DNA of 64,000 bases. Origin: Sphingomonas sp. Leaf412 (lineage in GTDB: Bacteria; Pseudomonadota; Alphaproteobacteria; Sphingomonadales; Sphingomonadaceae). Below, piece by piece: positions 21,515 to 51,787 of this stretch. The stretch's first letter is position 1. Each line of letters begins with the position of its first letter. The DNA is taken from positions 422,144 through 486,143 of the forward strand of contig NZ_LMQP01000002.1 in the NCBI RefSeq assembly GCF_001425405.1, read 5' to 3'. The position numbers and the translations under genes are program-made. The notes beneath the pieces are model-generated. The model searched no databases. It saw only the letters and a list, made by a program, of their open reading frames with translations, and was not told the DNA's origin.

Positions 21515-21574
21515 TTCTGCCGCATTCCACATCTAGGATCGATGCGGGCCATGGCCCGCCAAGGAGCTTTCAAC

Positions 21575-23626
21575 ATGGCCAAGACCAACCTCGACGACCA
21601 CGTCCTTCCCCGCCCGGTCGAGCGTCTGCCCGATTACGCCCACGCCAAGTCGCGCCAGTCGCTCGCCGAGCGCCTGCACGACGCCTTCGGGCTGACGCCG
21701 CAGTCCGCCAGCACGATCGCCGACGCGATCGTCGACCCGAGCGACGTTCGGCGCTCGATCGGCGAGCCTAGCGAGCCCGACGTCGAGCGCATCCCCGTGC
21801 CTGGCGGCACGCTGCTCGGCATCCGCACACAGGTGTGGGCGCGCCGGGTGATGCCCGACCCGCGCAACCCGCGCACCCTGCCGTCGCGCCGCCACCCGTT
21901 CGCTGTCGATCCCGGTTCGGGTGACGAGGACTCGCGCTTCCGGCCTGTGCCGGAACCGCAGCCGCTCGACGCCGCGCGGCCGCAGTCGGCCGAGTTGGTC
22001 GTAGACGTCGAGAGCCGCCACCATCTCGCCTGGGCCGCGCAGCAGACGGCGGCGTACGTCCTCAACGAGAACGACTGGCGCGTCTCGATCCGCAGCCAGG
22101 GCGTCATGGAGGCGGTGTGGCTCGTCGCGACGACGTTCCGGCATGCCGACGGCTCTGACTCGTCGACGACGCTGACGACCGCCGAGGGCTCGTCGCGCGC
22201 GACCGCGGTGCACAGCATTCTCAACATCGTTTCGGCCGACGTGCCGTACGATGATAACGACGCGGGGATGCGCGCACGCGTGAAGCGCATTAACGAGGCG
22301 TTCGACCGCGGCGAGCGCGACGCCGACACGATCTTCGCGCTGCGTTGCGAGCGCGTGCCGGCGCTGATCCTGGTGGGGTTCGAACCCTATCCGGGCGGCG
22401 CGACCACCTTCCCGACGGCGGTGCGTTCGCTCGTCGCGCTGCGCCACGTCGATCCGCCCAAGCCGTGGGGGGAGGGTCCGGAGAACGAGTCCCTTGCGGA
22501 CGAGGTTCTGGACGAGTTGATGCGCCGTGGCCTCGTGACCTCGACCGAGCGCGAATACTATGCCGGCTCATGCACGAAGGCGGAAGCCCGCGCCGCGCAT
22601 CTGCCCGATGATCCAGTGCTGCGCGCCGCCAGGCTCGTCCACCTGTTTAGCGCCGGTGGTGAAGAGGTGTACGAGGCGATCCGGGTCGCGGTCACCAGCC
22701 AGTCGACGCGCAAGCGCATGACTCAGAAGCTGATGAACGACCTCGCCACCGCGCTGATCCTTCGGGCGGTGTCCAAGGACCGCGCCGACATCGACCAGGC
22801 CCGCCGCTACCTCCGCCACGCGTTCGGCAAGGCGGCCCACCGCCGCGACGCCTGGACTGCGACCAGCCGGCCGACCGCCGAGCTCGTGGCGGCCGCGCTG
22901 AAGGAGGTGGAGACCGCGATCGCATCGGACCGGGACGAGCCCGGCCCGGCCTCGGTCGAGCTCGCCGTGCGCGCGGCCTTCCCGCTGGTGGTCGACGGCC
23001 GCCTGAACGCGGACCGGGGCACGTCGGGCAACGACCAGCCGGACCGTCGCACGCCCGGCGAGGTGCTCGACGCGATGCGGCGCAAGCCGCAGGGCATTCG
23101 CCAGCTCGGACAGGCGCTGGGCGACTTCGCCGAGGATATCGACATCCGCGCGGTCGGCGAGGACGGTGGAGTCCGCCGGCTCGAGGACGGGTCGGCGGAC
23201 CAGGTCCTGAGCGACGTCTGGCTCCGCAACGAGTATCCGCCCGCGGGGAAGGCGAAGGCGGCCCGGCCGGGCGACTCGCCGACCGACCGCTACGACCGCG
23301 CCGTCGAGGCGCTCGGCGGCGCGATGGAGGAGCTCTCCCGGTGCTTCGTCGAGCTGGCCAAGGTCGCGGGGGAGGACGGGCAGCCGCTGGTCGATCGCCG
23401 CGGGGTGGAGGCGCGGCTGACCGACCCGTGGCGCAAGACGCTCCGCTCGGTGGACGAGGAGCTGCTGCTGTGGGCCCGCGCGTACCGCAAGCGGCACGGC
23501 CAGGGTCGGCCAGCGCCGCTCGCCACCGGCGGGGACGACGATGACGATGCGGAGGACGGCGGCATCGAGGCGGAATGGGACGCCGCCGACGACGCCCCTG
23601 TGGTCACTGCGGACGAGGAGGCCTGA
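21575..23626 (+). CDS. Large ParB/DndB-like protein of unknown function
   Basis: This 683-aa protein is not firmly recognised. Residues of about 85-215 resemble the ParB/Srx fold: a VMPDPRNPR segment as in ParB box I, and TTAEGSSRATAVHSIL where ParB has its GERR box and DndB its DGQHR motif. The rest is helical; the tail is acidic (GDDDDDAEDGG...). The ATG follows AAGGAGC. A hairpin terminator ends it, and a PD-(D/E)XK gene follows 131 bp on. A sequence-specific DNA-binding or nicking role would fit, but this is inference from two short motifs. Confidence 0.5.
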   Translation: MAKTNLDDHVLPRPVERLPDYAHAKSRQSLAERLHDAFGLTPQSASTIADAIVDPSDVRRSIGEPSEPDVERIPVPGGTLLGIRTQVWARRVMPDPRNPRTLPSRRHPFAVDPGSGDEDSRFRPVPEPQPLDAARPQSAELVVDVESRHHLAWAAQQTAAYVLNENDWRVSIRSQGVMEAVWLVATTFRHADGSDSSTTLTTAEGSSRATAVHSILNIVSADVPYDDNDAGMRARVKRINEAFDRGERDADTIFALRCERVPALILVGFEPYPGGATTFPTAVRSLVALRHVDPPKPWGEGPENESLADEVLDELMRRGLVTSTEREYYAGSCTKAEARAAHLPDDPVLRAARLVHLFSAGGEEVYEAIRVAVTSQSTRKRMTQKLMNDLATALILRAVSKDRADIDQARRYLRHAFGKAAHRRDAWTATSRPTAELVAAALKEVETAIASDRDEPGPASVELAVRAAFPLVVDGRLNADRGTSGNDQPDRRTPGEVLDAMRRKPQGIRQLGQALGDFAEDIDIRAVGEDGGVRRLEDGSADQVLSDVWLRNEYPPAGKAKAARPGDSPTDRYDRAVEALGGAMEELSRCFVELAKVAGEDGQPLVDRRGVEARLTDPWRKTLRSVDEELLLWARAYRKRHGQGRPAPLATGGDDDDDAEDGGIEAEWDAADDAPVVTADEEA

Positions 23627-23633
23627 CGGCCGG

Positions 23634-23660
23634 CCGGGCGGGGGCTTAGACCCCGCCCGG
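23634..23660 (+). terminator. Hairpin after the ParB-like gene
   Basis: The stem ccgggcgggg / ccccgcccgg (10 bp, perfect) has a 7-nt loop and is followed by tgttcgttc. It begins 7 bases after the stop. It suggests that the next gene has its own promoter. Confidence 0.65.
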
Positions 23661-23757
23661 TGTTCGTTCAGATCTGGCTTCGCACGGTACCGCCGTCGCG
23701 GTTCGACGCGCGGCGATGATCGATGATCGCCGGCTGCGATGGAAACGAAAATTGGGG

Positions 23758-25116
23758 ATGACCGAGATGCCAAGGGACAACACGCTCTGGATCGCGCAGC
23801 GCGAGGGGCAGGACTGGCGCGACGAGGACGTGCTGGCCGGTGTTGGCTGGCTGCGTTCGCTCGTGCCGTCAGCGGAGTGGGCAGACCGCGAGGCGGCGGT
23901 CGAGATGCGTTTCCAGGCTGCCAAGCGCGAATGGGCGCAGGGACGACGGGTGCCGCTGTTCGATCCCGAGGACGCGATCGCCTGGTACGTGCATCAGGCG
24001 ACCAGGTATGCCGACCCCGCGCTACGCCCCGATTTCTTCCTGCCCGAGGGCTACCGCATCGCGCCGCTGTTCAAGCGTATCGGCCAGCTCCGCGACGCGC
24101 TCATCGGCATCGAGGGCGGCGAGGCCCGCGCCGCCCGGCTCATGACGGAGAATACGGCGCAGCCCGACGATAGCATCTACGAGCTGCTGGTCGCTGGCGC
24201 CTACGCCAGACGGGGATGGGCCACCGTCCGCTTCGTGCCCGAGACGCCGGGCGTCGGGAAACGCCACGACCTCATGGTCGAGCGGCCCGGTGAAGGCTGG
24301 GGCGTCGAGTGCAAGCGGTCCGGACGCTCGGGATACGCGCGCGACGAGCGGCTTGCCGGCGAACGCATGGCCGACGGCGCGCACGCGTTGTCGCGCCGTG
24401 CCGGACGGCCCCTCATCGTGCTCGCCCGGTTCCGCGAGGAGCTCCATACCCTCGGCGATGACTATCTTGCCGCGCGGGTCGGGTATTTCCTGAACGCCGT
24501 GGGTCCATACGAGTGGGACGACGAGGGCGGTGAGGGCATGGTCGCCGACGTCGATTGGACAAGGCTGCACTCGGTCATGGTCGAGGACGACATCTACTTC
24601 GGGTCGAGCCGCATGGTCGAGCTGCTGCTCGGCAGCTACGAGCCCGCGGTCGACTTCACGATGGCGGGCGACTGGACCCCGGCCGATGGCCGCCCGCTCC
24701 ACGCGGAATGGGTCGATCACCTGAGCCTCGTCGGTTGGAGGAGCGTCTCCGACGAGGCGGCGCGCCGCAAGTCGATGCACTTCCGCGGGCTGGTGGCCAA
24801 GGCGTCGACGCAGCTTCCGGGCGACCGGCCCGGCGCGATCCACGTCGGCTACGAGGGCGTGGGCGGCAATAGCGAGGATGGCCGCCGCCACGAGCTCAAC
24901 CGACGGGAGATGGCTTCGTTCGAACCTGGCAGGACGGGCCTGCGCATGGTCTACGGCAACTACTTCATGCCGGAGCTGGTCACGTCGCGGAACGAGAGTG
25001 CGGCCGTCAGCGAGACTTTGGCGTGGTATCCGGTCGGACGGGGTGGGGTTCGCGATCCGTTGCCGGGCCACATGCTATTCATGGACGAGGACGGCCGGCC
25101 GGGATCGCATCTCTGA
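23758..25116 (+). CDS. Predicted PD-(D/E)XK nuclease-like protein
   Basis: This 452-aa protein carries a restriction-endonuclease-like core at about residues 140-205: a helix with Glu (YELLVAGAYARRGW), then KRHDLMVE (the Asp) and WGVECKRSG (the E-x-K). The flanking parts are not recognised: an N-terminal helical region and a C-terminal mixed region. The start is uncertain (23716, 23758 or 23767); 23758 is the middle choice. It follows the ParB-like gene on the same strand and converges on the GHKL operon. A DNA-cutting role in defence is inferred. Confidence 0.6.
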   Translation: MTEMPRDNTLWIAQREGQDWRDEDVLAGVGWLRSLVPSAEWADREAAVEMRFQAAKREWAQGRRVPLFDPEDAIAWYVHQATRYADPALRPDFFLPEGYRIAPLFKRIGQLRDALIGIEGGEARAARLMTENTAQPDDSIYELLVAGAYARRGWATVRFVPETPGVGKRHDLMVERPGEGWGVECKRSGRSGYARDERLAGERMADGAHALSRRAGRPLIVLARFREELHTLGDDYLAARVGYFLNAVGPYEWDDEGGEGMVADVDWTRLHSVMVEDDIYFGSSRMVELLLGSYEPAVDFTMAGDWTPADGRPLHAEWVDHLSLVGWRSVSDEAARRKSMHFRGLVAKASTQLPGDRPGAIHVGYEGVGGNSEDGRRHELNRREMASFEPGRTGLRMVYGNYFMPELVTSRNESAAVSETLAWYPVGRGGVRDPLPGHMLFMDEDGRPGSHL

Positions 25117-25173: not shown

Positions 25174-27441
25174 TCAGGGATGGGGCCGCGCGATCGCCGC
25201 GATCTGGTATGGTTCCTCCCAGCGGTCGATGTGGCGGGCGAGGATCACTTGGTCGCCGCTGCCGTCCAGTTCCTGCGAGGCGACGCGCTCGACCGCTCGC
25301 CGAAGCCCGTCGCGCTCCTTCTCGTCGTGGACGAGGAACGCGATGCTTGCCTTGCGGTCGAGCGGGGGCTTCACCGACACTAACACCCCGTGCTCCATAC
25401 CCTTCGCTCTTCGGCGGACGGCCTTCCGCGCCCGTTCGAGCAAGCGGACCAGACGCGCTTGCTCCCCTTGGTCCGCCGCGCTCAGCAGGTGCATGCCGAT
25501 GAGGGTCCAACCGGCGGGTCGGCGCGTCGCCAGCGCGTCCAGGATGGATGCGAAGTACCTCCCCAATTTCGGTCGCGGCTTTTCGAGGATCCGACCCGCG
25601 TCCCGCGCGTCGTAGTATCTGTCGATCGCCTCCGACATGCCGGATGGTGAGAGGCTCATCTCCTGCGGCACGCCACCGAGGTTGAAGCCGCTTTCCAGAT
25701 AGAGTCCGAGAAAGTCGAGCTCGTCGCCGAGAAGTTGGAAGTGCCGCTGGAACGGGCCGCGCTCCGCCATGTAGTGCAGGAAAATTACTGGACGGTCGAG
25801 CACATCGGCGATCGCGAGCAGATCCGCGATGTTCATCATCGGCGCGAGCACGTGGTCGGGCGGCACCCACCCGGCGTCGCGAAGCTCCTGCTCTGCGGAT
25901 GCGAGCACGGAGAGATCGTCAAGCGATACCGAGATCCTGATGATGCGGTCGATGTCCCCGGGCGCGGTGATGCCTGCCTCAGCCACCGTGGCGAGGGCCT
26001 CGGCGGAGCCCGCCTGCGCGTCACACACGACACCCTCGAGCCGCGCCGACTGCAGCGATGGCTCCACGACCATGTCGCGAACGTGGCGCCTGACGCGGTC
26101 CGGAGCGCCGCGAAGGCCCTGCGGTGTCAGGTGGTTGGCCTTGGCCTCCGCGATCAGAAGCACCTTGTCGATCTGGACGATCGCGTCCGTCTCGAACCGC
26201 TGGTCCCCGTAAGACCATGTCACGCCCGCTCTGACTGCCGCCATCGGCAAGGCCATCCGCAGTGCCTCCACCATCCGCCGCTCGAGGTAGGCGTTGCGGG
26301 CGGTATCCAGCCGGTTCAACGCGCCCGCCTCTTCGGCAAGCCTCCGCACGATCGCGTGTATGTGGCTCAGGATCGCCTGCGGCATCGGCGCGAGGAAGGT
26401 ATCGCCGAGGTCGATGAGGGGCGCGAGCCAGATGGGGTTTGCGAGGAACAGAAAGTCGAGGTTGTGGCTGGACAGAGCGCCGGGCTTAAGCGAGATCGCC
26501 CGGAGTGCCCTTTCGGTTCGGGCGCCGTCCAAACCCGCGAGTTCGCCAAGCTCCTTCGCGCCGAAGCTCATGTTGTCGGGATGTCGCAGATCGGCATGCC
26601 CCAGCAACATGGCTAACACCTGCTGGCGAGTGATCCCTGACGGTAGTCGCTCCGTAAGTTCCTTGGCCGACCCGGCGATGTCGGGAAAACCTTCGCAGTA
26701 GCGCGCGAGCATCTCGGGAACCGACCTCGCGTTGGCGACAGATCGCATGGCGCCCGTCCAGAGATTGGCGCGACGCTCGAGTTCGGCGACCATGGTGCGG
26801 CCGAGCTCGATCACATCGCTCGCGGCGAAGCCGTGATGCGCGAGGAAGGCCGCATCGAGCGGTGAGTACATCTCCCTGGACATCGAGACGACGTCGCCGA
26901 AATAGCCCCAGTTGCGCACCGCGTGCGTGTGTAAACGTATCCGTTCCTGGAGGGCGGCTATCGTCCTCGCCTGGGGATCGTCCGTCTCTACGCCCGCGAC
27001 GATTCGCTGCGCCAAAAAGCCGAGGGCCAGTGAAGGGAGTTCATCGAAGACGCGCTGGACGGCGCTCGGCACGGACGGGTTGTCCGACCAGTCAGCATGC
27101 GGAACGGTAAGGAGGACTGCTTGAAGCAGTTCGACGTGGTGCTGTTCGAGCTTGCTCGAGATCGGGGTGGTCGATCCGTCCTCGAGGACGCCGCGCTGAA
27201 GTCCGTAGTATGCCGCCGAGGCGATGAGCCCGGCGGGGTCGTGCTCGCGGAACAGCTGCTGGAACGCGGCGAACATCTCCGGCACTCGGGCCACGTGGGC
27301 TTTCGCCCCGGCCGCCATCTTCGCGCGGAACCCCTCGCGGTCGGCCGGCGGGGAGATGATCCTGAAGGTCGGCCCTCCGCCGTGGCCCGCCGGCGGCACG
27401 GTGTGATCCGTCTTCTTCCTGCGTCCTCGGCTCTTCGGCAT
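25174..27441 (-). CDS. Unknown 755-aa protein with nuclease-like core
   Basis: The family is not recognised. The protein starts with a short basic segment (MPKSRGRRKKTD) and is mainly helical. A PD-(D/E)XK-like motif occurs in the middle: a Glu-bearing helix (LERRMVEALRMAL), then RFETDAIVQID and LLIAEAKANHL (about residues 475-500), which fits E...D...ExK. It is the last gene of the minus-strand operon, 50 bp after the REC-like gene. It may be the effector of the GHKL/REC pair. It converges with the 23758 gene with a 57-bp gap. Confidence 0.55.
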   Translation of the reverse strand: MPKSRGRRKKTDHTVPPAGHGGGPTFRIISPPADREGFRAKMAAGAKAHVARVPEMFAAFQQLFREHDPAGLIASAAYYGLQRGVLEDGSTTPISSKLEQHHVELLQAVLLTVPHADWSDNPSVPSAVQRVFDELPSLALGFLAQRIVAGVETDDPQARTIAALQERIRLHTHAVRNWGYFGDVVSMSREMYSPLDAAFLAHHGFAASDVIELGRTMVAELERRANLWTGAMRSVANARSVPEMLARYCEGFPDIAGSAKELTERLPSGITRQQVLAMLLGHADLRHPDNMSFGAKELGELAGLDGARTERALRAISLKPGALSSHNLDFLFLANPIWLAPLIDLGDTFLAPMPQAILSHIHAIVRRLAEEAGALNRLDTARNAYLERRMVEALRMALPMAAVRAGVTWSYGDQRFETDAIVQIDKVLLIAEAKANHLTPQGLRGAPDRVRRHVRDMVVEPSLQSARLEGVVCDAQAGSAEALATVAEAGITAPGDIDRIIRISVSLDDLSVLASAEQELRDAGWVPPDHVLAPMMNIADLLAIADVLDRPVIFLHYMAERGPFQRHFQLLGDELDFLGLYLESGFNLGGVPQEMSLSPSGMSEAIDRYYDARDAGRILEKPRPKLGRYFASILDALATRRPAGWTLIGMHLLSAADQGEQARLVRLLERARKAVRRRAKGMEHGVLVSVKPPLDRKASIAFLVHDEKERDGLRRAVERVASQELDGSGDQVILARHIDRWEEPYQIAAIARPHP

Positions 27442-27491: not shown

Positions 27492-29213
27492 TCAGGGTTC
27501 GAAGTCGATGTCGAATGCCCGCCGGCCGAGCACCAGGAGCGTCGTCTCCAGCAGGGCGGAGGAGAACGGGGGGCGCACCCGGCCGATCCGCCTGAGGTTC
27601 CAGCTGACCCTCTCGGGCAGTGGACCCCGCTGATCGCCCTGTCGCTGAAGCGCCGCCTTGCGGATCCCGATACGTACCTGTTGCACCTTGACCGTCCGCG
27701 AGGTCGTCAGGATCAGGTCTTCCACTAGAGGTGGCGCGGGCATGGCTGGTGCCCCGAGCACCGCGTCGAGAGGCCCAGTGATCGCGACGTAGGCGGACGC
27801 GAGTCCTGCCAGGAGGTCCTCGTTCGGCGTGTGGCCCGTGTCCAGCCTTACCCTGCCGTCCGGTCTCAGGCTGGCGAGATCGAGCGCCGCAAGGCGCGCG
27901 AACGTGCAGTTCTCGATGTCGAGCTTCCACTCGGCCCCGTCGAGCTTGAAGGGAAGGAGGGGCATCTTGAGCCGCTCGTTCCCGGCACCCTCGTGTCGCC
28001 GCAGTGGGATGAGCATGGCTTCATGTTGCCGCCGCCCCCCATCAGCTCTGATCATGATGTCGCATGGCTGCCCGAGCAGAATGAAGCGGGTCGAGGCGGT
28101 CGCCCCGGGCTCGTTGGCGTCGATCTCGAAGAGGTCCCCATTCGCGACCGGGGAAAGCGCGCGGTTGACCACCTGCTCTCCGTCGAGAACCTCGGCCCGG
28201 CGGAGAGCGGAAAGAGCTTCGGAAGCGTCCTCACCCTCAGTGTCCAGGACCGTGGCGCGCAGCGCTCTCAGGGCGCGTCCCGCACCGATCGCCGTCTCAT
28301 CCGTCGCGAAGAACTCACGCAGCCGCTGCGACTGCCCTGCCGCGAGTGCGCGTTCCACCACGTGGAGTTCGGACACCCCTTCCCGAAAGCCGCGTTCGAA
28401 AACGTGCGTCTCCAGGCGTTCCGGCACGATGTCCAGCAGCGCTCCCGCCGACTTGTCGAACGCGTCCTGCAGCTGGCCCCTCGCCGCGCGCAGGACGTCG
28501 CTGAGCGCCTTACGGAGGCCCGCCCTCTTGAACCCGATCTGCAGCGCACTCTCGATCGCGGCGGCGTCGCCCTCGAGGCGTTTCTTCGCCATGACGGTGA
28601 CCGGAATGACCTCGCCTTCGGGGCCTCGCGGCAGGCTATTGCCAAGCTCCCTCTCCAGGGTTCCTTCGCCCGCCGCGTCGGTCGCGTGCGTCAGGATGAA
28701 GGGCGTTCCCCGCGACGCCCGCGCGCAGAGATCTGCGAGGACGTCGGCTCCGCGCCTGTCGTCGCCGGCGCCTTCGTTGAGGTCGACGACGTAGCCAATG
28801 CGCCCGTCATCGCCGGCAAGAGCGGGGAGCTTCGCCAGCGCGTCGTCGAACGACCACCTGTCCTCCGGCGCGATGCGCAGCACCGCACAGATTGCATCGG
28901 TGGTTTCCGTTGAGAGTTCGGCGGTGGCGAAATCACCTGGGGGGGCTTCGGCTGTCTCGGCCGCGAGCGCGGCGGTGAGGATCTCGGCGCGCCGATCGGA
29001 GCTGAGGTCGGCGAGACGCTGCTCGAGCTCGCCGGTGACATCGCCGCCGACGGCGATTACCGCGGTCAGCTCTGCGATCTCCGCGAAGCCGGCGCCCGCC
29101 GCTGGGTATACGAGCAGAAGTTCCGTAAGGTCGTGCGGCTTTGTGATCAGCTTGTCATCGATCCAGATCACCCGATCGATGCCCAGAGCGGTCCTGATCT
29201 CCTCGAGTGCCAT
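27492..29213 (-). CDS. REC-like (response-receiver) protein with large C-terminal region
   Basis: The first ~230 of 573 residues follow a receiver-domain order: acidic pair after strand 1 (VIWIDDK, residues 14-20), phospho-acceptor-type Asp after strand 3 (YVVDLNEG, then GADVLADL), Thr after strand 4 (PFILTHAT) and Lys after strand 5 (VMAKKRL). A long insertion separates strands 1 and 3. The remaining ~340 residues are unrecognised. The start at 29213 (MALEEIRTAL) lies 2 bases after the stop of the kinase-like ATPase gene, so they are coupled. Phosphotransfer from that kinase is the likely input. Confidence 0.6.
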   Translation of the reverse strand: MALEEIRTALGIDRVIWIDDKLITKPHDLTELLLVYPAAGAGFAEIAELTAVIAVGGDVTGELEQRLADLSSDRRAEILTAALAAETAEAPPGDFATAELSTETTDAICAVLRIAPEDRWSFDDALAKLPALAGDDGRIGYVVDLNEGAGDDRRGADVLADLCARASRGTPFILTHATDAAGEGTLERELGNSLPRGPEGEVIPVTVMAKKRLEGDAAAIESALQIGFKRAGLRKALSDVLRAARGQLQDAFDKSAGALLDIVPERLETHVFERGFREGVSELHVVERALAAGQSQRLREFFATDETAIGAGRALRALRATVLDTEGEDASEALSALRRAEVLDGEQVVNRALSPVANGDLFEIDANEPGATASTRFILLGQPCDIMIRADGGRRQHEAMLIPLRRHEGAGNERLKMPLLPFKLDGAEWKLDIENCTFARLAALDLASLRPDGRVRLDTGHTPNEDLLAGLASAYVAITGPLDAVLGAPAMPAPPLVEDLILTTSRTVKVQQVRIGIRKAALQRQGDQRGPLPERVSWNLRRIGRVRPPFSSALLETTLLVLGRRAFDIDFEP

Positions 29214-29215
29214 CT

Positions 29216-31762
29216 TCAGATCCCGGTGGTGACGGCGCTGAGATCGACCGTGAAGCGATACCGACGTCCTTCCTCGTTTCGATCGGGCGAGAGGGCTATC
29301 GAGCATCCATCGATCGCGAGCAGCTGGTTGACGATGAAAAGGCCGAGACCCTGGCCTTCCTCCTCCTGGTGCTTGGTCGTGACGAATAGGTCGAAGAGGC
29401 TCTCCTCCACGCGCGGGTCGACGCCTGGTCCAGTGTCCTCGAGGATAAACCCTCCTGGAGTTGTCTGCACCGTGATCATCCGCTTGCCCTCCGGGGTCGA
29501 GCGGCGCATCCAGAAGAGGCTGTTGCGCACGAGATTGTCGACCACCTGCAGGAGCCGCGCTCGGTTCATGCGAACGCTGGTGTCGGGGCCCTGGACAGCT
29601 GCCGTCGCGCCCCAGCGCGCCAACGTGCCGTCACGCTGCTCGAGATACGTCTGCACGAACTCGACCAAGCCGAACCTGTCCTTCACCGCTCTGGACCGCT
29701 GCATCAGCGGATCGACCAGCGAGGCCGCCTGCTGGAGGGCGGCGCACGAGCGCTTGATCGCCACTAGGTGCTGCTTGGCCGCGGTGCCGCCCCCGGCGCT
29801 TCGCTCGAGCCGGGTCACCCGCTGCCGGATCTCGCCCAGATGCGTGCGGAGCTCGTGGGTGAGGCCGCGCGCCGCGAGCCCCACGGCGGCGCTCTCCACC
29901 AGCCTCTCGGCCTGCGCACGACCCTCCTCCACCTCGAGTTGCAGACGCTTGAGCAGGTCGCTGTCCGGCGTCGCCTCCGTCAGGGCCGCACCCGCTTCGT
30001 CGATGCTGCGCAGCGCTTCGCGAACAACGGCGGCCGCCCGTGACGGATCGGCCCCCGGGGCCCCGAGATCGTCCAGTTCCTTCGTGAGCCGCACGGTGGC
30101 CGCGCCCAGTCCCGCGCGCATCGCGACGACGGTCTTGAGGCGCCTCCCCACGGTCGAGAGCGCGCCCTCGAAGGTCTGCTCCGGTGGCGGAAGCCGATCC
30201 ATCTCCAGCTTCTTCGCGAACGCGTCGACGGAACGCCGCACGTCGACGAGCGCCCCGTTCGCGAAGTCGCGGCAGCGACGGGCGATGCGCAGGAAGCCCC
30301 GGTAATTGGCGTCCTCGACGAAGCCCTCCCGGTCCGACTTCTCCACGAGGCGGTGGTTCTCGGAACCGCTCAGCACGAAGTACCCGACGGTGTTGTCCAC
30401 GCGCATGTTGTACGTGCTTCCCGACGTCATGCCCGACGATAGCTCGAGCCAGTCGCCGCGCGACCTGACCTGGAAGCCGTCGCGGAGGATGGCGACGCCC
30501 GCCATGCTCTTCACCAGGCTGGGTGTCACGCCGCTGCCGGAGGCGGTCCCGTCGGCATCGTCGTCGTCGCCGACGAGGTGGAAGAAGTAGAACGCGCCTC
30601 GGAACGGACCCGGGTCGGCTGCGACCGCCGCATCCGCCGCGAGGGTGTCGTCATGCGCGTCGGTGCGATCGAGCTCGGCGAACCACGCGCCGTCGGGGTC
30701 GATCGACAGATCGTCGTAGCGCTTCCTCAGCCGGGGGCTGGCGCGCAGCGTCTCGGCGAAGGCGGCGCCCCCGTCGGCTTCGAAGACCGCCGCCGTTCGC
30801 GTCCGCTGCCGATCTGACCGCATTGGCGCCAGCAGGCGCTTGCGCAGCCGGGCGGTCGCGTGGAGCACGTTGGGTCCGCCCTCGAACGCCGGGCCCCAGT
30901 TGAAGTCGAAGCGCGCGACGGCGCGCGAGAGGAGCTCGTCGGTGACCATGCCGAGCGTGTTCTCGCGACCGTCGAGCTCGACCGTGACGGGGAAGGTGGA
31001 TGTGGCCTCGAAGGGGGATATGAGGCGCGCCAGACTGGCGGTGATCTCGGCCAGCCGCCTGTCGCGTCGCCATTCCGCCAAGTCCCTCAGTCCAAGGACC
31101 GAGACCCTCGTTCCCTTGAAGCCGTCGATGTTGGGTCTGCTGCCGAGCGCCACGGGTATCTGGTCAATCGTGTCCGCGGTGTCGCAGTCGCGCCATCGGA
31201 ACTGGGCGGAGGCGATCTCCGCGTCCGGCGCGATCGCCGTCTCCACGAGCAGGATGTCCCCCAGCTTCATCGACCCGAGGCGGCCCAGACCCTTGTCGCC
31301 GAGCGGAGTGCGTCCCAGCGCCGTGCGCGCCTTGGGTCCGCCGCCGTCCGCGCGCTTGCCCGACCCGCTGACGACCAGCCACGAGTTGGCGAGGTCCGCA
31401 GACGCTATGCCGGTCCCCGCGTCCTCGACGGTGATGCGGCCCTCGTAGTCCAGCCGGCGGACGACCGGGGTGTCGGGTCCGGGCTCCGAGCTCAGGGGCT
31501 GGCCGTCGACGCCTTCGATCGTCGCCAGAACCGTATCGGTGTCCTCGATGAAGCGGGCGAGGCGGGCGGCGGTGCCCGTCTCCGTCCTCGATGCGCGCTC
31601 GCGCGTGTCGATCTCGATGCGACAGGTCGGCGAGTCCGCGTCGTATGCGTTCTTGACGCACTCCAGGATCGCCTGCTCGGCGTCGGTGACGAGTTCGCTG
31701 CCGAGCTGGACGAGGACGTGCGCCCCGACGCGCAGCTCTGCGATGCTCTCTGTCAAACCCAA
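29216..31762 (-). CDS. Double GHKL ATPase: Hsp90-like N-terminus fused to histidine-kinase C-terminus
   Basis: The 848-aa protein contains two ATPase modules of the gyrase-Hsp90-kinase-MutL fold. The N-terminal one has ECVKNAYDAD (34-43), VEDAGTG (112-118) and GDKGLGRLG (155-163), as in Hsp90/MORC-type proteins. The C-terminal one is a kinase core with LTHELRTHL (His636), NLVRNSLFW (743-751), DTGPGVD (776-782) and GQGLGLF (803-809). No transmembrane segment is seen. It heads a three-gene operon with the REC-like and nuclease-like genes. I infer a sensor that couples clamp-like ATP binding to phosphorelay signalling. Confidence 0.8.
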   Translation of the reverse strand: MGLTESIAELRVGAHVLVQLGSELVTDAEQAILECVKNAYDADSPTCRIEIDTRERASRTETGTAARLARFIEDTDTVLATIEGVDGQPLSSEPGPDTPVVRRLDYEGRITVEDAGTGIASADLANSWLVVSGSGKRADGGGPKARTALGRTPLGDKGLGRLGSMKLGDILLVETAIAPDAEIASAQFRWRDCDTADTIDQIPVALGSRPNIDGFKGTRVSVLGLRDLAEWRRDRRLAEITASLARLISPFEATSTFPVTVELDGRENTLGMVTDELLSRAVARFDFNWGPAFEGGPNVLHATARLRKRLLAPMRSDRQRTRTAAVFEADGGAAFAETLRASPRLRKRYDDLSIDPDGAWFAELDRTDAHDDTLAADAAVAADPGPFRGAFYFFHLVGDDDDADGTASGSGVTPSLVKSMAGVAILRDGFQVRSRGDWLELSSGMTSGSTYNMRVDNTVGYFVLSGSENHRLVEKSDREGFVEDANYRGFLRIARRCRDFANGALVDVRRSVDAFAKKLEMDRLPPPEQTFEGALSTVGRRLKTVVAMRAGLGAATVRLTKELDDLGAPGADPSRAAAVVREALRSIDEAGAALTEATPDSDLLKRLQLEVEEGRAQAERLVESAAVGLAARGLTHELRTHLGEIRQRVTRLERSAGGGTAAKQHLVAIKRSCAALQQAASLVDPLMQRSRAVKDRFGLVEFVQTYLEQRDGTLARWGATAAVQGPDTSVRMNRARLLQVVDNLVRNSLFWMRRSTPEGKRMITVQTTPGGFILEDTGPGVDPRVEESLFDLFVTTKHQEEEGQGLGLFIVNQLLAIDGCSIALSPDRNEEGRRYRFTVDLSAVTTGI

Positions 31763-32316
31763 CGCTTCCCCGTTTCACACTACGTCCTGGCGGTACCGCC
31801 CACGGACGGACCACCGTCGCAACCCAGCCGGACATGCGCAAGAGCGTTCCGTCGAAACGATTGGGCGAGGAGAAGCCCGAGCACAAGCGCGACTCGCGTC
31901 CCACACCCGGCAGCGTCACGAGGCGCGTCGACGGTCTGTCGCATCACCGCGACGCGGCTGATGACGTCTGGATCAGCTCAGTCAACGCCTCGGGCGTGCC
32001 GCGGACGAGCCCACCGGGAGGGGGCGGCGGCTTTGCTGAGCGGCGTTGTGCCGGTCGCGTGGTTTGCTCGTCGGCCGGATCGGCGAACGGGAACGGACAG
32101 CGAAACAGCCGCTTTTCTGGCGCTTTTACAGGCCGTCAAGTATCACCAGCGATGCCCCGCATTCCACCGCAGGGGGCTAGTTCTCAGTTAGTGTACCACC
32201 AAATGCCCGTTTTAGCGGTCTGTAGGACCGCTAATTTAGGAAATAAAACCTTTCCGCATATTGATTTTATTTGGTGCTGTCATATATCCGGTGTATCGCT
32301 CATCCAGGAGGTTCAT
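31763..32316. other. 554-bp divergent intergenic region
   Basis: This region separates the minus-strand GHKL-kinase operon from the plus-strand MORC-like operon and must hold both promoters. The right half is AT-richer than its surroundings (ctaatttaggaaataaaacc, about 32230-32250). It holds a perfect 8-bp dyad at 32213-32233 and a TGTATCGC octamer at 32292-32299 that recurs near the HTH gene at 36.4-36.7 kb. No gene is seen in it. Confidence 0.55.
32213..32233. promoter_or_regulatory. Perfect dyad upstream of the MORC-like operon
   Basis: tagcggtc-tgtag-gaccgcta is an 8-bp perfect inverted repeat with a 5-bp spacer, about 84 bp before the ATG at 32317 and next to an AT-rich stretch suited to a promoter. 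It looks like a repressor operator; the binding protein is unknown. Confidence 0.5.
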
Positions 32317-32577
32317 ATGGCGCGTGCAGATACAGATCAGACCGACCAGCCTGGCATCCGGGACAAGCGCACGAAGTTCGTGTCGCTGGCCGAGAGCCGG
32401 ACCGCTGCGGCGATCAAGGCGATCCGCGTCGTCGCGAAGCTCGGGAACCAGTCCCACTACGACTACACCGAGACGGACGTGCGCAAGATCGCGACCGCGC
32501 TGAACAAGGAGGTCGACGCCATGAAGACGCGCATGTTGTCTCGCGGCGGCAAGGAAACGGTCGAATTCAAGCTGTGA
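32317..32577 (+). CDS. Small conserved-type protein preceding the MORC-like ATPase
   Basis: This 86-aa charged, helical protein (KFVSLAESRTAAAIKAIRVV...YDYTETDVRKIATALNKEV) ends in a beta-like tail (KETVEFKL). I know the pattern of small proteins of this shape next to ATPases on mobile elements but cannot name a function. CAGGAGG precedes the ATG. The next gene starts 7 bases after its stop and shares the ribosome-binding region, so the two are coupled, perhaps as subunits. Confidence 0.6.
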   Translation: MARADTDQTDQPGIRDKRTKFVSLAESRTAAAIKAIRVVAKLGNQSHYDYTETDVRKIATALNKEVDAMKTRMLSRGGKETVEFKL

Positions 32578-32584
32578 GGTGACG

Positions 32585-35104
32585 ATGACGAGGCTGACCA
32601 ACAAGGAGTTGTGCGAGGCGCTCCTCCGGGCGGACACGGAGGATGCCGTCATCAGCCTCCTCACCGAACAGGGCCACTGGACGGACGCATCGGCGTGGCG
32701 CCACTACGGCGACGTCGAGAACAACTGGGGCCAGAGCGGCAATCAGCAGAGCCTCGCGGAGGCCGCGCTGGCGGAGAAGGTCGTCAACTCGGTCGACGCC
32801 ACTCTGATCGGCAAGTGCCGCGAGGCTGGCATCGATCCCGAGGGGAAGGCGGCGCCGCAGACCATCCGCGCGGCCGTCTCCCGTTTCTATGACGTCGGCA
32901 GCGACAACATCGCGTCGGGCGGCAAGGTCACGGATTGGACGCCGGAGAAGCGCCGTGCGGTCGCGGAGACGATCACGCTGGCCGCGACCGGTGCCTCCCC
33001 CGAGATGTCGCTCACGATCTCGGACATGGGGGAGGGGCAGACGCCGGACCGCGTCCCGGAAACGATCCTGTCGCTCAACCGCAGCAACAAGATGCGCATC
33101 CCGTTCGTCCAGGGGCAGTTCAACCAGGGCGGGACGGGGGCGTTGCGGTTCGCCGGCAAGAACAACCTGCAGCTTGTCGTGACGCGGCGGAACCCGGCGT
33201 TCGTCCCCGCCGACGCGGTGGAGCGGGATCGCGAATGGGGGTTCACCCTCGTGCGGCGCGAGCGGCCGAGCCAGACCCAGAGCCGGAACTCGATCTACAC
33301 CTTCCTCGCGCCGGTCGGCGTCGATCAGGGTCGCGACGGCGGCATACTGACGTTCGCGGCGGAACGGTTCGGCATCTTCCCCGATCAGGACACCGCCTAC
33401 GGTCGCGAAGCGGCGCACGGCACCGCGATCAAGCTATACGACTACAGTTTCATCGGTGAGCGCTCGAACATCCTGCGGGGCAAGAGCCTGTTCTCGCGGC
33501 TGGACCTGCTGCTGCCGCGCATCGCGCTGCCGGTTCGCGTCTACGACCTGCGCAGGCGCCGCAGCGGGAAGCTGCTGCCGGTCGGGAGCCGCGAGACGAC
33601 GCTCGACGGACTCGTTCGTCGTCTGGGCGAGTCAAGCAACCTCGAGCCGGGCTTCCCGGTCTACGTGCCGTTCTCGCCCTTGGGCGAGCGACTGACGGCC
33701 TGCATCTACGCTGGCAAGAAGGCCGGGTCTTCAGCCGACGACGCCGACGACGACAACACCGACGAGGACCGCCGCAAGGTTGGAGGCCTCAAGCGGTACC
33801 GGAAGCGTGAGGGTGTCATCTTCACGCGTAACGGGCAGACGCAGGGTTCGCTGCCCAAGGAGTTCTTCCAGCGGCCCGGCGTCAAGATGAAGCCGATCGC
33901 GGAGGACCTGCTCGTCTTCGTCGACTGCGACGGCCTGAGCGCGGACACCCGCGAGGACCTCTTCATGGCGAGCCGCGACCGTCTCGTCGATGGTGCCTTC
34001 AAGGCCGCGGCGGTTCGCGAGCTTGAGATCGCGCTCGCGAGCTGCGAGGAGCTCAAGGAGCTTCGCAACCGCCGCCAGCAGCAGGAGCTGGAGGAGAAGA
34101 TCAAGGACGACCGGCCGCTCACCCAGGTGCTCGAGAGCCTGATCGACAAGTCGCCGAACCTGCGCCAGCTGCTGCGGCTGGGCACCCGCATCCAGACGCC
34201 GCTCCGCATCGTGCAGAACGATGTCGACGTGACGAAGCCGGCCAAGCTCGAGGCCTATCCCAGCTACTTCACGCTTCGTGGCTCAAGGGACGGCAAACCT
34301 CTCCCGAAGCCGTGTCCGATCAACCAGCGATCACGGTTCACCTTCGACACCGACGTGCGCGACGACTACTTCGTGCGGGACGAGCGCGAGAGGGGAAACC
34401 TCGGATGCCAGTCCGCCGACGGTACCATGATCTCGTTCTCCGGTCCGAACCTCCGTTCGGGCGTCGCGACCATCACCATGTCGCTGCCGGAAGGGGTCAG
34501 GGTCGGCGACGTGCTGCGGCTGACCTTCACGGTCAAGGACGATTTCCGTGAGTTCGTCAGCGAGGCCGAGGTCCGGGTGACGCCTGCTGCGGAACGGGCC
34601 GAGCCGCGGCCGCCGCAACCGCGTAAGGACGGTCGGAAGCGCGAAGGTGAAGGCCCGGACGGCCCATCGCGGCTGAACCCGCCGCATATCGAGAAGGTGT
34701 TCCGGGCCGATTGGGTCGAGCGCGGGTTCGACGAGACGACCGCGATGGTCGTGCAGAGCGCCGGCTACGACCAGGACGAGAAGGAGATCCGCAAGTTCCT
34801 CGTCAACATGGACAATGCCTCGCTGCTCCACGAGGCCGTGCAGAACAAGATGCATCTCGAGCTGGCGCGTAACCAGTTCCTGTACGCGAACGTCCTGTTC
34901 GGCTTGGCCCTCCTGCTCGACGACGCGAAGCGGTCGCACAGTACGCTCGGCGAAGGACCGACCGAGGTCGAGCCGGAGACGATCGAGAACCTGATCGCCC
35001 GCACGACCCGGGCGCTCGCGCCCTTCATGTTGGCGATCGCCTCGCTCGGCGGCACCGAACTCGGCGAAGGGATGGAGGTGGACGGACTCGAGGACGTGGC
35101 CTGA
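32585..35104 (+). CDS. MORC/MutL-type GHKL ATPase
   Basis: The 839-aa protein begins with a GHKL ATPase: N box EKVVNSVDA (64-72), G1 box DMGEG (147-151) and G2 box GQFNQGGTG (177-185). An S5-like transducer region probably follows, then a long coiled-coil-prone stretch (LEIALASCEELKELRNRRQQQ, about 480-510) and a beta-rich C-terminal half. Prokaryotic MORC relatives (paraMORC) are known to occur in restriction-modification loci. The start at 32585 is preferred to a GTG 6 bases upstream because GAGGTG then serves as ribosome-binding site. Its stop abuts the methyltransferase stop. Confidence 0.75.
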   Translation: MTRLTNKELCEALLRADTEDAVISLLTEQGHWTDASAWRHYGDVENNWGQSGNQQSLAEAALAEKVVNSVDATLIGKCREAGIDPEGKAAPQTIRAAVSRFYDVGSDNIASGGKVTDWTPEKRRAVAETITLAATGASPEMSLTISDMGEGQTPDRVPETILSLNRSNKMRIPFVQGQFNQGGTGALRFAGKNNLQLVVTRRNPAFVPADAVERDREWGFTLVRRERPSQTQSRNSIYTFLAPVGVDQGRDGGILTFAAERFGIFPDQDTAYGREAAHGTAIKLYDYSFIGERSNILRGKSLFSRLDLLLPRIALPVRVYDLRRRRSGKLLPVGSRETTLDGLVRRLGESSNLEPGFPVYVPFSPLGERLTACIYAGKKAGSSADDADDDNTDEDRRKVGGLKRYRKREGVIFTRNGQTQGSLPKEFFQRPGVKMKPIAEDLLVFVDCDGLSADTREDLFMASRDRLVDGAFKAAAVRELEIALASCEELKELRNRRQQQELEEKIKDDRPLTQVLESLIDKSPNLRQLLRLGTRIQTPLRIVQNDVDVTKPAKLEAYPSYFTLRGSRDGKPLPKPCPINQRSRFTFDTDVRDDYFVRDERERGNLGCQSADGTMISFSGPNLRSGVATITMSLPEGVRVGDVLRLTFTVKDDFREFVSEAEVRVTPAAERAEPRPPQPRKDGRKREGEGPDGPSRLNPPHIEKVFRADWVERGFDETTAMVVQSAGYDQDEKEIRKFLVNMDNASLLHEAVQNKMHLELARNQFLYANVLFGLALLLDDAKRSHSTLGEGPTEVEPETIENLIARTTRALAPFMLAIASLGGTELGEGMEVDGLEDVA

Positions 35105-36367
35105 TCAGTGGGCGCGCAGGCGGTGGAACAGCACCACCTCGCGCGCGCCGCCGGTCTGCCCACGGCTCGTCGCGTGCCACTTCCGGTTCGGGACGGAGCG
35201 CCAGAGACGGCCGTCCTCCTCGCCCGCAAGCGTGGAGAGCCCGAACTCCTGCCAGCCCGATCGATCGGCGACCTCGAGATAGCGCGCCAGCTGCCACTCC
35301 GGATCGGCGAAGGCCACGACCTGAACCAGGGTCGTCGCGCCATCGGCGATCGACGCGAGCGATCGCAGCGCGCCGCCTAGCTGGTCGAAGTACTTGTGGA
35401 GACCCGGACCCTTGCGACCTCCCATGGTGTAGTAGCTCTCGCCCGATCCATCCAACGCCTTGGCGATGAAGAACGGGGCCGGCGATTCCTTCCGGCCGTC
35501 GACCTGCCAGCGATGGTATAGCACATGGACACCGGGGTAGGGGGGGCTGGTCATGATCAGGCGCGGTGCGCCTGCCTTGATGATCGTCGGATCGGCCTCG
35601 AGCCCGATCACCGAACGGTTGAGGACGATGGGGCGTCCACCCGGGAACGCCCAGCTGGCTTTCTGCAGTGCGAGCGCACCCTCGACGATCAGCGACGCGC
35701 TTCCCGAGAGGGTCCGCCTGAAGGCGTCGGTCGACGGTAGCTGCTTGCGCCCGTCCAGTGCCCAATGGGCGGTGCGGAGCACGGCGCAGCGCGCGAGCGC
35801 CTCTAAGGTGGGATCGCTGATCTCCTCGATGGCGGACACGGCCTGCGCGATCGCCTTCCGTAGCCGCCACCGCTGGCTGGTGCCCATGTTCCGGAAGTAT
35901 CCCTTCGTCGCCCAATCGTCGAAGGGGGGCTCGGGAAGCCGGAGGTTGATCCGACCGGCGATCCCCGCGATGACCTCGATGAAGCGCTCGGCGCGGTCCT
36001 GCGTCAGCGTCATCAGCTTCGCATTGGCCACGAAGGTCGCCAGCGTGCTGATGTCGCTGCCGATCGCTTCGCGCCCGCGCGCGTATGCCTCGACCAGGGT
36101 GGTGCCGCCGCCGACGTAGGGGTCCAGCACCAAGTCGCCCGGGAGGGTGAACGTCTCGATCGCCTCGGCGACGAGCAGCGGGGAGAAGCGGGCGGGGTAG
36201 TTGTAGTGCCGGTGGGTCAGCCCGCCGACCGCCTGCGTGTCCCGCGCCCGGTCGATCAGCGCGCGTTGGCTGGCCTCGCTCAGGGGGAGCGGTGCCGGCG
36301 GCGGGGCTAGCGAGTACGCTTCGCTCGATGTTTCGTTCGGCGCGACAGATGTGGGCTCAACGCGCAT
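35105..36367 (-). CDS. DNA methyltransferase (TSPPY type)
   Basis: This 420-aa amino-methyltransferase has an AdoMet-binding motif DPYVGGGTT (82-90) and catalytic motif TSPPY (273-277), which fits N4-cytosine or N6-adenine methylation. An N-terminal HRHYNYPARFSP segment precedes the AdoMet site. A specificity region of about 180 residues lies between the motifs. I use the ATG at 36367 behind GAAGG; a GTG at 36394 is possible. It overlaps the upstream HTH gene by 11 bases. Its stop codon touches that of the MORC-like gene (tgatca at 35102-35107). It probably protects host DNA from the nucleases of this region. Confidence 0.85.
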   Translation of the reverse strand: MRVEPTSVAPNETSSEAYSLAPPPAPLPLSEASQRALIDRARDTQAVGGLTHRHYNYPARFSPLLVAEAIETFTLPGDLVLDPYVGGGTTLVEAYARGREAIGSDISTLATFVANAKLMTLTQDRAERFIEVIAGIAGRINLRLPEPPFDDWATKGYFRNMGTSQRWRLRKAIAQAVSAIEEISDPTLEALARCAVLRTAHWALDGRKQLPSTDAFRRTLSGSASLIVEGALALQKASWAFPGGRPIVLNRSVIGLEADPTIIKAGAPRLIMTSPPYPGVHVLYHRWQVDGRKESPAPFFIAKALDGSGESYYTMGGRKGPGLHKYFDQLGGALRSLASIADGATTLVQVVAFADPEWQLARYLEVADRSGWQEFGLSTLAGEEDGRLWRSVPNRKWHATSRGQTGGAREVVLFHRLRAH

Positions 36368-36707
36368 TGCACTGGCCTTCGGTACCGAGGTCACGCTCCA
36401 GAACGGTCGTCATGTATCGCAGCACCTGGAGCGCGATACCTGGCACGTCGCGGTTCGGATGTATCGCTTTTGTATCGGATGTATCGCTTTTGGCTGAGCC
36501 GTCAGCATTACGGTCTAGTGACTCCAGCAGTTTCCACAACTCGTTGCGTACGGCTGGCGTCGCGCCTCCCCCCTTTTTCCGTATCCGGTTCAAACGTAGG
36601 CGGGTCGTGCCGATGCGACGCGCCGCCTCGGACTCGTTCCCGCCTGCCTGTTCCACCACGGCTTCGATCGCGTCGAACAGGAGAATGTTGGGATCAACCT
36701 TCGGCAT
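36357..36707 (-). CDS. Helix-turn-helix regulator upstream of the methyltransferase
   Basis: This 116-aa protein has an HTH of Fis/XRE-like spacing: GGNESEAARRIGTTRLRLNRIRKKG (about residues 22-46). The remainder is linker-like. The position, overlapping the methyltransferase start, matches control (C) proteins of restriction-modification loci. Four ATGTATCGC copies lie within and just upstream of the gene, a possible autoregulatory site set. Confidence 0.7.
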   Translation of the reverse strand: MPKVDPNILLFDAIEAVVEQAGGNESEAARRIGTTRLRLNRIRKKGGGATPAVRNELWKLLESLDRNADGSAKSDTSDTKAIHPNRDVPGIALQVLRYMTTVLERDLGTEGQCNAR

Positions 36708-41095: not shown

Positions 41096-42391
41096 ATGCC
41101 CATCGATGTCCAGCGCTACAACCCGCTCGCCACCACGACGCCGCTCTCCCGGGTGCCGCTCGAGGTGCGCAAGGACTCGATCGTGCCGGTCGGTTTCTCG
41201 TACCTCGTCAAGCGCACGTCCCGCGAGATTCTGCCGGAGGAGTTCGCCTATCTGATGTCCGTCGCCGACGTGCCCAAGCGCAAGGAGACAGGCAGCTATC
41301 CGCAACAGACCAACCGGATCTACGCCTACGACCTCCGCCCCTACGCGATCGTGCGCGAGATGGAGGGGCGCCCCTTCCGCTACATGTGCGACGACGTGGT
41401 GCAGGCGGCGGTGATCGGGATGACCATGGGCGTCACCCAGCGCGGCCAGTCCTACAAGCGCGGCACAATCGCGCAGTCGCTGCGGACCTTGTTGCGCTGC
41501 GTCGATCACGCGAACAAGGCCGATGGCTGCGACATCCAGCTCGACGGCGACGCCGCGTTATGCCGCGCCTGGGGTGTCGAGCGGCTCCGCGACGATGACG
41601 GCAAGGCGATCGACCCCTCCCATGTCGACGCGGCGCGGCGCCATATGATCCGGCCGCTCGCGCCGGACACCCGACGGCGGCTGGCGGCGTCGATGGTGGT
41701 CCTCCCGTCCGAATGGGTGCGCGGTGGGCCCTCCTCCAGGCCCGGTCTGGAGCTCGACCACGGCATGCGGGTCGGGTGCAGGCTGGTCGAGAACCTCGGT
41801 ATCCACTTCGAGGACGTCCTCAGGATCACGGTGGCGGACCCCACGCGCGAGTACCCGTTCGTGTTGAGGCGCACCAAGGGCGCGGACACGCGTGAGGTGC
41901 AGGTGCCAGGCAGGGTGCTGCTCCGCCAGCAGGACTACATCAGCAACGAGCGCGCCGCGTGCGTCGAGGAGGCGAGGGAGCTCCATGGCAGCAACTGGGA
42001 CGAGCCCGCCGAGTTGCTCGTAAACACCCTCGCCTCGGGCGTGCACGTCGGACACGCGACCCAGCCCAGCTCCATCCAGCGCGATTTCCGCGTCGCACAG
42101 GAGAGGCTCGGCATGGTGCGGCCGTTCGAGGGCGTTGACGAGGACGGCGGGCCCAGGACGATCGAGCTGCCCTGGCACTGCTACCACGACCAGCGTCACA
42201 CCTACGCGTTCGCTATGTACAAGGTGGCGCTCCGCCGCCGCGAGGCGGATCCGGTCGCGTTCGTCCAGCGTCGCCTGGGCCATGCCGACCGCGGCACGAC
42301 CGACCGCATCTACCTCTTCCCGGACCGCCGGCGCGTCGCCGAGGTGGGTGACATCGCGGTCGCGGGCACCGGGGCGATCATCCGTGGATGA
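41096..42391 (+). CDS. Tyrosine recombinase, first of trio (GmtY/TnpA-like)
   Basis: This 431-aa site-specific recombinase has Arg I in GMRVG (R225), HDQRH (His364, Arg367, His368), GH (394-395) and the nucleophile Tyr405 in DRIYLF, so the catalytic set looks complete. It is the first of four overlapping genes; its stop overlaps the next GTG by 8 bases. Three tyrosine recombinases in a row followed by a small protein is the plan of Tn554 and Gamma-Mobile-Trio elements. ATG at 41096. Confidence 0.85.
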   Translation: MPIDVQRYNPLATTTPLSRVPLEVRKDSIVPVGFSYLVKRTSREILPEEFAYLMSVADVPKRKETGSYPQQTNRIYAYDLRPYAIVREMEGRPFRYMCDDVVQAAVIGMTMGVTQRGQSYKRGTIAQSLRTLLRCVDHANKADGCDIQLDGDAALCRAWGVERLRDDDGKAIDPSHVDAARRHMIRPLAPDTRRRLAASMVVLPSEWVRGGPSSRPGLELDHGMRVGCRLVENLGIHFEDVLRITVADPTREYPFVLRRTKGADTREVQVPGRVLLRQQDYISNERAACVEEARELHGSNWDEPAELLVNTLASGVHVGHATQPSSIQRDFRVAQERLGMVRPFEGVDEDGGPRTIELPWHCYHDQRHTYAFAMYKVALRRREADPVAFVQRRLGHADRGTTDRIYLFPDRRRVAEVGDIAVAGTGAIIRG

Positions 42392-51606: not shown

Positions 51607-51787
51607 GCATCCAGCCTCCCGCCGGCCGCAAGGCCGGTCCATGCCCCGGCTCGTCCGGGGCGGGCTGGCGCGTCGCGCTTCGCCTGGGAGAAGGTGTCGC
51701 CGTGATCGGCCATGGTGAAGCGGACTCCGGCACCGACGAGGACTGGGCTCGTCCCCTCCACCATCGCCTCCTATCGGGTCAAAGTGG
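51607..51787 (+). ncRNA. Candidate retron msr-msd RNA
   Basis: The 181 bp between effector and reverse transcriptase fold well. Two short stem-loops stand first: ccggcc-gcaa-ggccgg (51622-51637, GNRA-type loop) and gccccgg-ctcgt-ccggggc (51643-51661). A long stem follows: 51708-51720 pairs with 51755-51767 at 11 of 13 positions, capped by gacgag / ctcgtc (51735-51740, 51748-51753). Short msr hairpins followed by one long msd hairpin is the retron RNA plan. The a1/a2 pairing is only weakly seen (gagcatcc at 51605 with ggatgatc at 51786). Boundaries are approximate. Confidence 0.55.

Follow-up and report, generated by a model that had tools for sequence, protein, structure and literature searches.

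GHKL ATPases, a DNA methyltransferase and a kinase/receiver pair in Sphingomonas sp. Leaf412: two gene modules with a possible role in modification-guided defence

A 64,000-nucleotide (nt) stretch of the 3.46-Mb genome of Sphingomonas sp. Leaf412 (the window hereafter) carries two GHKL ATPases, a receiver-like protein, a nuclease-like protein and a DNA methyltransferase close to one another. This raises the question of whether these genes make up one defence system, as the initial annotation of the sequence had proposed, or several. We observed from gene order, conserved motifs, recurring partners and fold models that the genes form two modules, the ATPase-methyltransferase cassette F-G-H and the kinase/receiver pair E-D (genes are lettered as in Table 1), and not one six-gene system.

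The minus-strand run E-D-C diverges from the plus-strand pair F-G across a gap of 554 nt (31763-32316). The start codon of D (ATG at 29213) lies 2 nt past the stop of E, and C follows 50 nt past D. The 3' ends of G and H face each other, and the start of H is overlapped by I. The open reading frames (ORFs) named in the initial annotation are all present, but the span assigned to the system (29216-36707) omits D and C, and the predicted plus-strand operon consists of F and G only, H being convergent with them.

We collected relatives of G with a profile built from six sequences (A1) from 84,980 species genomes; 443 were found and the best 80 were kept as G loci. E-D occurred together with F-G-H in one of these 80, L074 (Sphingomonas sp. 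UNC305MFCol5.2), which has F-G, H, D (45% identity) and E (54%); here E-D shares the strand of H and lies upstream of it. The G protein of L074 is only 39% identical to that of the window and belongs to another G subgroup, so two G subgroups are joined to this type of E-D. A scan of 397 genomes from the window's family detected the D model in three and the G model in five, and both only in the window's own. Because the pair and the cassette meet at one of the 80 G loci, and D and G in that one genome of the family, the full set largely fails to co-occur, which is the outcome that the initial annotation had itself named as telling against a single system.

A six-gene phosphorelay restriction system with C as its controlled nuclease is, in our judgement, very improbable. 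E, D and C do lie in one tight run, and the motif E-x-D ... E-(A/G)-K of PD-(D/E)xK type (named by eye) is present in all five aligned C sequences including that of the window, in agreement with the annotated nuclease-like protein. Genome G499 (L110, L197) also has a C homologue, 75% identical over 721 amino acids (aa), at a distance of 5.8 kb from a further E-D cassette. The E of that cassette, however, is only ∼30% identical to that of the window, and mobile-element-like ORFs stand between the two. The other C homologues (L009, L010 and L011) have no E, D or G within ∼8 kb, and no other locus with the full set was found. C is probably a loosely linked passenger.

The F-G-H cassette recurs in metagenome-assembled genomes and isolates whose labels span many bacterial phyla. 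Among the 68 of the 80 G loci with room (at least 1300 nt beyond G), an H homologue was convergent with and adjacent to G in 43, and elsewhere in the locus in three; four of the 43 (L017, L018, L050 and L069) did not pass the strict overlap rule and were included manually on the basis of their coordinates. The predicted tie between a MORC-like ATPase and a methyltransferase was thus borne out. An F homologue was located just 5' of G in 31 of the 80 loci. Some loci lacking H have another methyltransferase before F-G, of the DPPY type in L075 and a large one in L077 and L086, while at several others G has no recognisable neighbouring partner. Pairwise distances of G and H were correlated (r 0.62; 47 loci including the window; none of 2000 permutations as high), to which shared host descent may contribute. 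Relatives of G were also found on plasmids (seven by tblastn, 24-32% identity) and on viral contigs (7 with profile A1).

H matched the Pfam family N6_N4_Mtase (8.9e-12), as a type II restriction-modification (R-M) methyltransferase does, and the SPPY motif is present in 46 of 47 aligned rows (SPPF in the other). The annotated methyltransferase therefore stands, but its proposed helix-turn-helix (HTH) partner, I, showed only a weak HTH_8 match (E 0.0021), under the Pfam cut-off. L074 has a 107-aa ORF placed at H like I, with no sequence match to I.

An alignment of 40 G proteins shows conserved GHKL motif residues. In the G model (mean predicted local distance difference test, pLDDT, 80.9; predicted template-modelling score, pTM, 0.70), residues 43-498 match Hsp90-family chains, the best being TRAP1 (Z 15.8, root-mean-square deviation 4.2, 292 residues aligned), and Foldseek returned HtpG, GyrB and MORC3 at 1e-9 to 5e-8. 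These model matches indicate a GHKL domain followed by an S5-type domain; the C-terminal 340 residues fall outside the matched fold region. Searches of PDB sequences with the G profile gave no rows, or weak chance-like ones.

E, the double GHKL protein of the initial annotation, contains both HATPase domains (HATPase_c_3, 4.6e-11; HATPase_c, 2.6e-16). We looked for full-length relatives on plasmids, where 105 records had an E match and 13 of these were inspected, and in viral contigs (71 loci). In alignment A6, which consists of 58 of the 64 full-length viral rows, the window and L074 (the rest were dropped as near copies or by size), both HATPase families are present in 60 of 60 kinases, and H636 and both sets of Bergerat motifs are invariant. 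The N-terminal GHKL domain matches residues 45-198 of NF050001 (BbrUII/HgiDII) at 5e-13. Since E joins a GHKL domain of the type found in DNA enzymes, as judged from this match to a restriction-enzyme model, to a kinase core, sensing of DNA state by E would be the natural inference. In the viral and proviral set (71 contigs, L126-L196), an ORF with methyltransferase motifs was noted within ∼5 kb in 16 of the 64 full-length cases, mostly a C5 enzyme just upstream.

D has the acidic residues and the lysine of a receiver in the expected order (D23-D24, D148 and K214 in alignments A2, A5 and A7; the alignment numbering begins 4 codons upstream of the ATG), as had been claimed. Alignment A7 contains 54 of 61 viral partners, the window and L074, the rest having been dropped as near copies or by size. 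D148 is invariant in these 56 partners and K214 is retained in 45, and in the acid pair the first residue is D or E and the second D, N or E. A receiver-like ORF pattern follows E at 61 of 64 viral loci, but it also fits 34% of viral-locus ORFs of at least 150 aa, so it is the conservation of the aspartate that carries the weight. In VIA-align, the D model matched the receiver fold at Z ∼10. The invariant histidine of E and aspartate of D support the proposed phosphorelay-type kinase/receiver pair. For D itself, tblastn gave no match in plasmids, 398 genomes of the phylum yielded only the window's own, and the search of viral contigs yielded two contigs.

The C-terminal domain of D likely has a CcdB/MazF fold, judging from its model. 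In VIA-align, residues 355-567 gave CcdB/MazF entries in 22 of 50 rows among the matches listed (Z 8.4-9.5, on a low-confidence model); a family missing from such listings is not thereby excluded. Foldseek gave CcdB (probability 0.96, E 0.16) and MazF (probability 0.66), with E > 0.1 for these. The six closer proteins of alignment A5 and most of the distant D relatives (D') share G-D-(L/V/I)-F followed, after 15-24 residues, by a hydrophobic strand and a QPCD-like motif; G-D-(I/L/V)-F ... CD(L/I) is common to D and D' in most rows. We read this layout as that of the opening strands of MazF, with the catalytic arginine of the latter missing. A C-D ... R-x-x-G motif, invariant in the six closer rows, replaces the known catalytic residues of MazF and CcdB. 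Toxin function of this domain is put forward as a hypothesis from the modelled fold. As a separate observation, a 186-aa ORF near a G homologue (L059, 7318-7875, minus strand) has a stretch, GTIVDN...LTNACDV, that resembles by eye the output-domain motif of D.

E and D are adjacent in the window, L074, L007, L008, L109 and L110. The order methyltransferase-E-D was found in all four of the closer cassettes examined: L007 (Rhizobium etli), L008 (Hymenobacter), and L109 and L110 (the window's family), where the methyltransferase of L109 is under the Pfam cut-off and that of L110 was assigned by eye because it resembles the L109 enzyme. More distant pairs (E'D'), whose D' profile aligns with that of D (probability 96.5, E 9.8e-10), had Ssp genes beside them at each of the 14 loci examined, with SspC and SspD at ten, and SspG/SspH only within the flank at four. 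In L121, E'-D' lies between SspC and SspD inside the ssp operon, where PADLOC confirms SspB, C, D and F; in L119 (Acinetobacter baumannii), the pair directly adjoins SspBCD. At these loci, kinase and receiver genes are thus neighbours with modification genes close by. An E-type kinase lies within ∼10 kb in four of the five genomes of the family with the G model; in the window the kinase is paired with D, and in L111-L113 it belongs to an E'D' pair accompanied by Ssp genes.

Taken together, our tentative explanation, which we hold at slightly below even confidence, is that the window contains, around a single methyltransferase, two defence modules built on GHKL ATPases and guided by DNA modification, and that E-D is a phosphorelay-switched effector. 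H would methylate the cell's own DNA. G, as an Hsp90/MORC-type ATPase, would dimerise and clamp in an ATP-dependent manner and, with F, act on DNA without the mark. The N-terminal GHKL domain of E would sense DNA or a nucleotide state tied to missing marks, its C-terminal kinase would phosphorylate H636, and the phosphoryl group would pass to D148 of the D receiver. The output domain of D, with its CcdB/MazF-like fold, would then be switched to stop infection by arresting or damaging the cell. The self mark for E-D would come from H in the window, and elsewhere from another methyltransferase or from phosphorothioation by SspBCD. Unmarked DNA as the signal, the phosphotransfer, the direction of the switch, the action of the output domain and the service of H to both modules are our suggestions in this scheme.

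Several observations weigh against this explanation. Besides the single co-occurrence at L074, H was not found in 22 of the 68 G loci with room, homologues of I were absent at 1e-4 from every locus collected, and six of the eleven distant-G loci lack E'D'. The viral E-D pair of L126, with a D-type partner, has no methyltransferase by motif within ∼5 kb. Family scans detected no nuclease in F or G, the C-terminal half of G being barely sampled by the fold search. The D model is weak (mean pLDDT 58.4, pTM 0.40, from six sequences); its Foldseek search gave no row at E <= 0.001, the best row being an unrelated enzyme. Searches of PDB sequences with the D profile gave none, or weak chance-like rows, and the catalytic arginine of MazF is not conserved in the D alignment. 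Pfam HEF_HK (PF19191) reached only 0.027 in E (15.4 bits against a cut-off of 24.1) and none of the 60 relatives at 1e-3, while Response_reg_2 (PF19192) did not match D and matched one of the 56 partners. Response_reg was found in five of the 56. By these counts together, the E-D pair falls in a class wider than the published Pfam models.

The two modules could also be unrelated and share no more than their place in a defence island, F-G-H working alone and E-D with another mark or none. We regard this as somewhat unlikely. It agrees with the 79 of the 80 best G loci that have no E-D, homologues of the window's own D and E being found only in L074, with the cassettes L007, L008, L109 and L110, in which E-D has its own upstream methyltransferase and no G, and with the clustering of defence genes in islands, the window itself holding a retron. 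On the other hand, the E-D pair of the window has no methyltransferase of its own nearby, and that of L074 lies directly upstream of H together with a G of the other subgroup. Moreover, of eleven loci with distant G (L002-L006, L096-L098 and L111-L113), five have G together with E'D' and Ssp genes (L002, L004, L111, L112 and L113), one has Ssp genes only and five have neither.

We think it improbable that E-D is an ordinary soluble two-component regulator that controls how the island or the marking enzyme is transcribed. Its kinase/receiver architecture would suit such a role, and a complete SspFGH set stands beside E'D' at several Ssp loci (L116, L121), where the pair need not be the effector because that restriction set is present. 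However, Pfam scans found no DNA-binding output domain in D, the modelled output resembles toxin folds, and neither annotation nor inspection showed a further restriction gene alongside the methyltransferase-E-D cassettes. The Ssp set of A. baumannii also lacks SspE in 5,518 of the 5,530 genomes with the system, according to a 2025 report (PMC12421847), which notes, next to an Ssp set without a nuclease, a two-component system with a histidine kinase. A sharper form of our explanation, rather unlikely as it stands, is a two-component restriction system in which a DNA-sensing GHKL-clamp kinase reads the self mark and phosphotransfer switches a receiver-fused toxin of CcdB/MazF fold. Such a unit would plug onto methylation or SspBCD, G may join it, and it would be the missing effector of Ssp sets without SspE, for example in the main A. 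baumannii clone.

We compared the two modules with known systems, citing each paper for the sections consulted. No PADLOC system name was assigned, as had been expected: D, G, C and I had no match at E <= 1, F (CasR, 0.0093) and E (REase_II, 6e-5) had weak ones only, and H was a generic MTase_II. Pfam likewise gave no trustworthy family for D, C, F and G at E <= 1. The earlier statement that no described system has this exact set holds as to the name, but the E-D kind of pair is already known. Bellieny-Rabelo et al. 2021 (PMC8011034) described the HEF_HK/Response_reg_2 pair, related to paraMORC, in which a soluble kinase with HATPase_c_3, histidine helices and HATPase_c stands beside a divergent receiver near R-M genes, as in E-D; it differs in that HEF_HK does not match E and Response_reg_2 does not match D. 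That paper contains no phosphorothioation terms and reports no other known domain in the receiver protein, unlike D. MORC-like ATPases in R-M operons have been known since Iyer et al. 2008 (PMC2292703), where GHKL + S5 ATPases adjoin DNA methylases, as in F-G-H; those operons mostly include SFII helicases and REase-fold nucleases, whereas F-G-H has an 86-aa partner and a convergent N-type methyltransferase.

Among the phosphorothioation systems, SspABCD with SspE or SspFGH resembles the window in that SspBCD adjoins relatives of E and D, and of G as well at five loci. D, E and G were considered as SspF, SspG and SspH, an idea that arose from the DUF4007/PAPS-reductase genes adjoining G homologues. 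This was rejected, as neither PADLOC nor the published description fits: SspF-H (Wang et al. 2021, PMC8092258) comprise a Walker A protein and an FtsK-like C-terminus and are by description unrelated to the window proteins. PADLOC found no Ssp match among proteins A-I, the part of the genome searched for Ssp. GHKL terms are absent from the sections of PMC10853773 consulted, where 'kinase' refers to DndF. In the BbrUII/HgiDII model, E matches only the GHKL part and leaves the remainder uncovered, scoring 48 bits where the cut-off is 550. MazF and CcdB toxins resemble D in the modelled fold of its C-terminal domain and in the position of GD-x-F, but differ in having no sequence match, and D is fused to a receiver. 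No name for the F-G-H cassette was found in the open-access literature, most subscription journals and preprint servers being outside its scope. As far as the literature was searched, the F-G-H cassette, the systematic association of E'D' with Ssp genes, the Ssp-linked set of G and the CcdB/MazF-like output of D are new.

Other features of the window are included in Table 1. The retron in the same window supports a defence-island setting. A and B were considered as linked genes and rejected, because no homologue of either was found at 1e-4 in any locus collected. Three overlapping recombinase-like ORFs on the plus strand (41096-42391, ∼42390-44408 and 44395-46560) had no Pfam match at 1e-3 and resemble by eye a recombinase-in-trio.

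Table 1. Genes of the two modules and other features of the window
Feature	Coordinates	Strand	Description
A	two-gene run A-B, 21542-25116	+	694 aa, no family
B	in run 21542-25116	+	466 aa; phrog_37220 at 5e-10; HDLMV...ECK stretch, PD-(D/E)xK core-like by eye
C	25174..27441	-	755 aa; PD-(D/E)xK-motif protein; third gene of the minus-strand run
D	27492..29213	-	573 aa; receiver domain (acid pair, phospho-acceptor Asp, Lys) and C-terminal domain with modelled CcdB/MazF fold
E	29216..31762	-	double-GHKL kinase: N-terminal HATPase_c_3 (MORC/HgiDII-like), helical region with H636, C-terminal HATPase_c
F	32317..32577	+	86-aa protein
G	32585..35104	+	GHKL ATPase with S5/middle domains (Hsp90/MORC3/GyrB-like); best start ATG 32585
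H	35105..36394	-	SPPY DNA methyltransferase, convergent with G
I	36357..36707	-	small protein, weak Fis-type HTH, overlaps start of H
Retron type III-A	50458-52957	+	PRTase_III-A 3.2e-87; reverse transcriptase RT_III-A 1.4e-161
DUF3800 protein	58363-59532	+	5.5e-11

Phosphorelay signalling and immunity based on DNA marks are usually handled as separate fields. As an ATPase-methyltransferase set here neighbours a sensor kinase and a phosphate-switched protein with a possibly toxin-like end, phosphate signalling may link the marking of DNA with the defence of the cell. Should E-D prove to be an effector that depends on the mark and is switched by phosphate, it would provide a testable effector for the Ssp loci that have been reported without a nuclease (PMC12421847).

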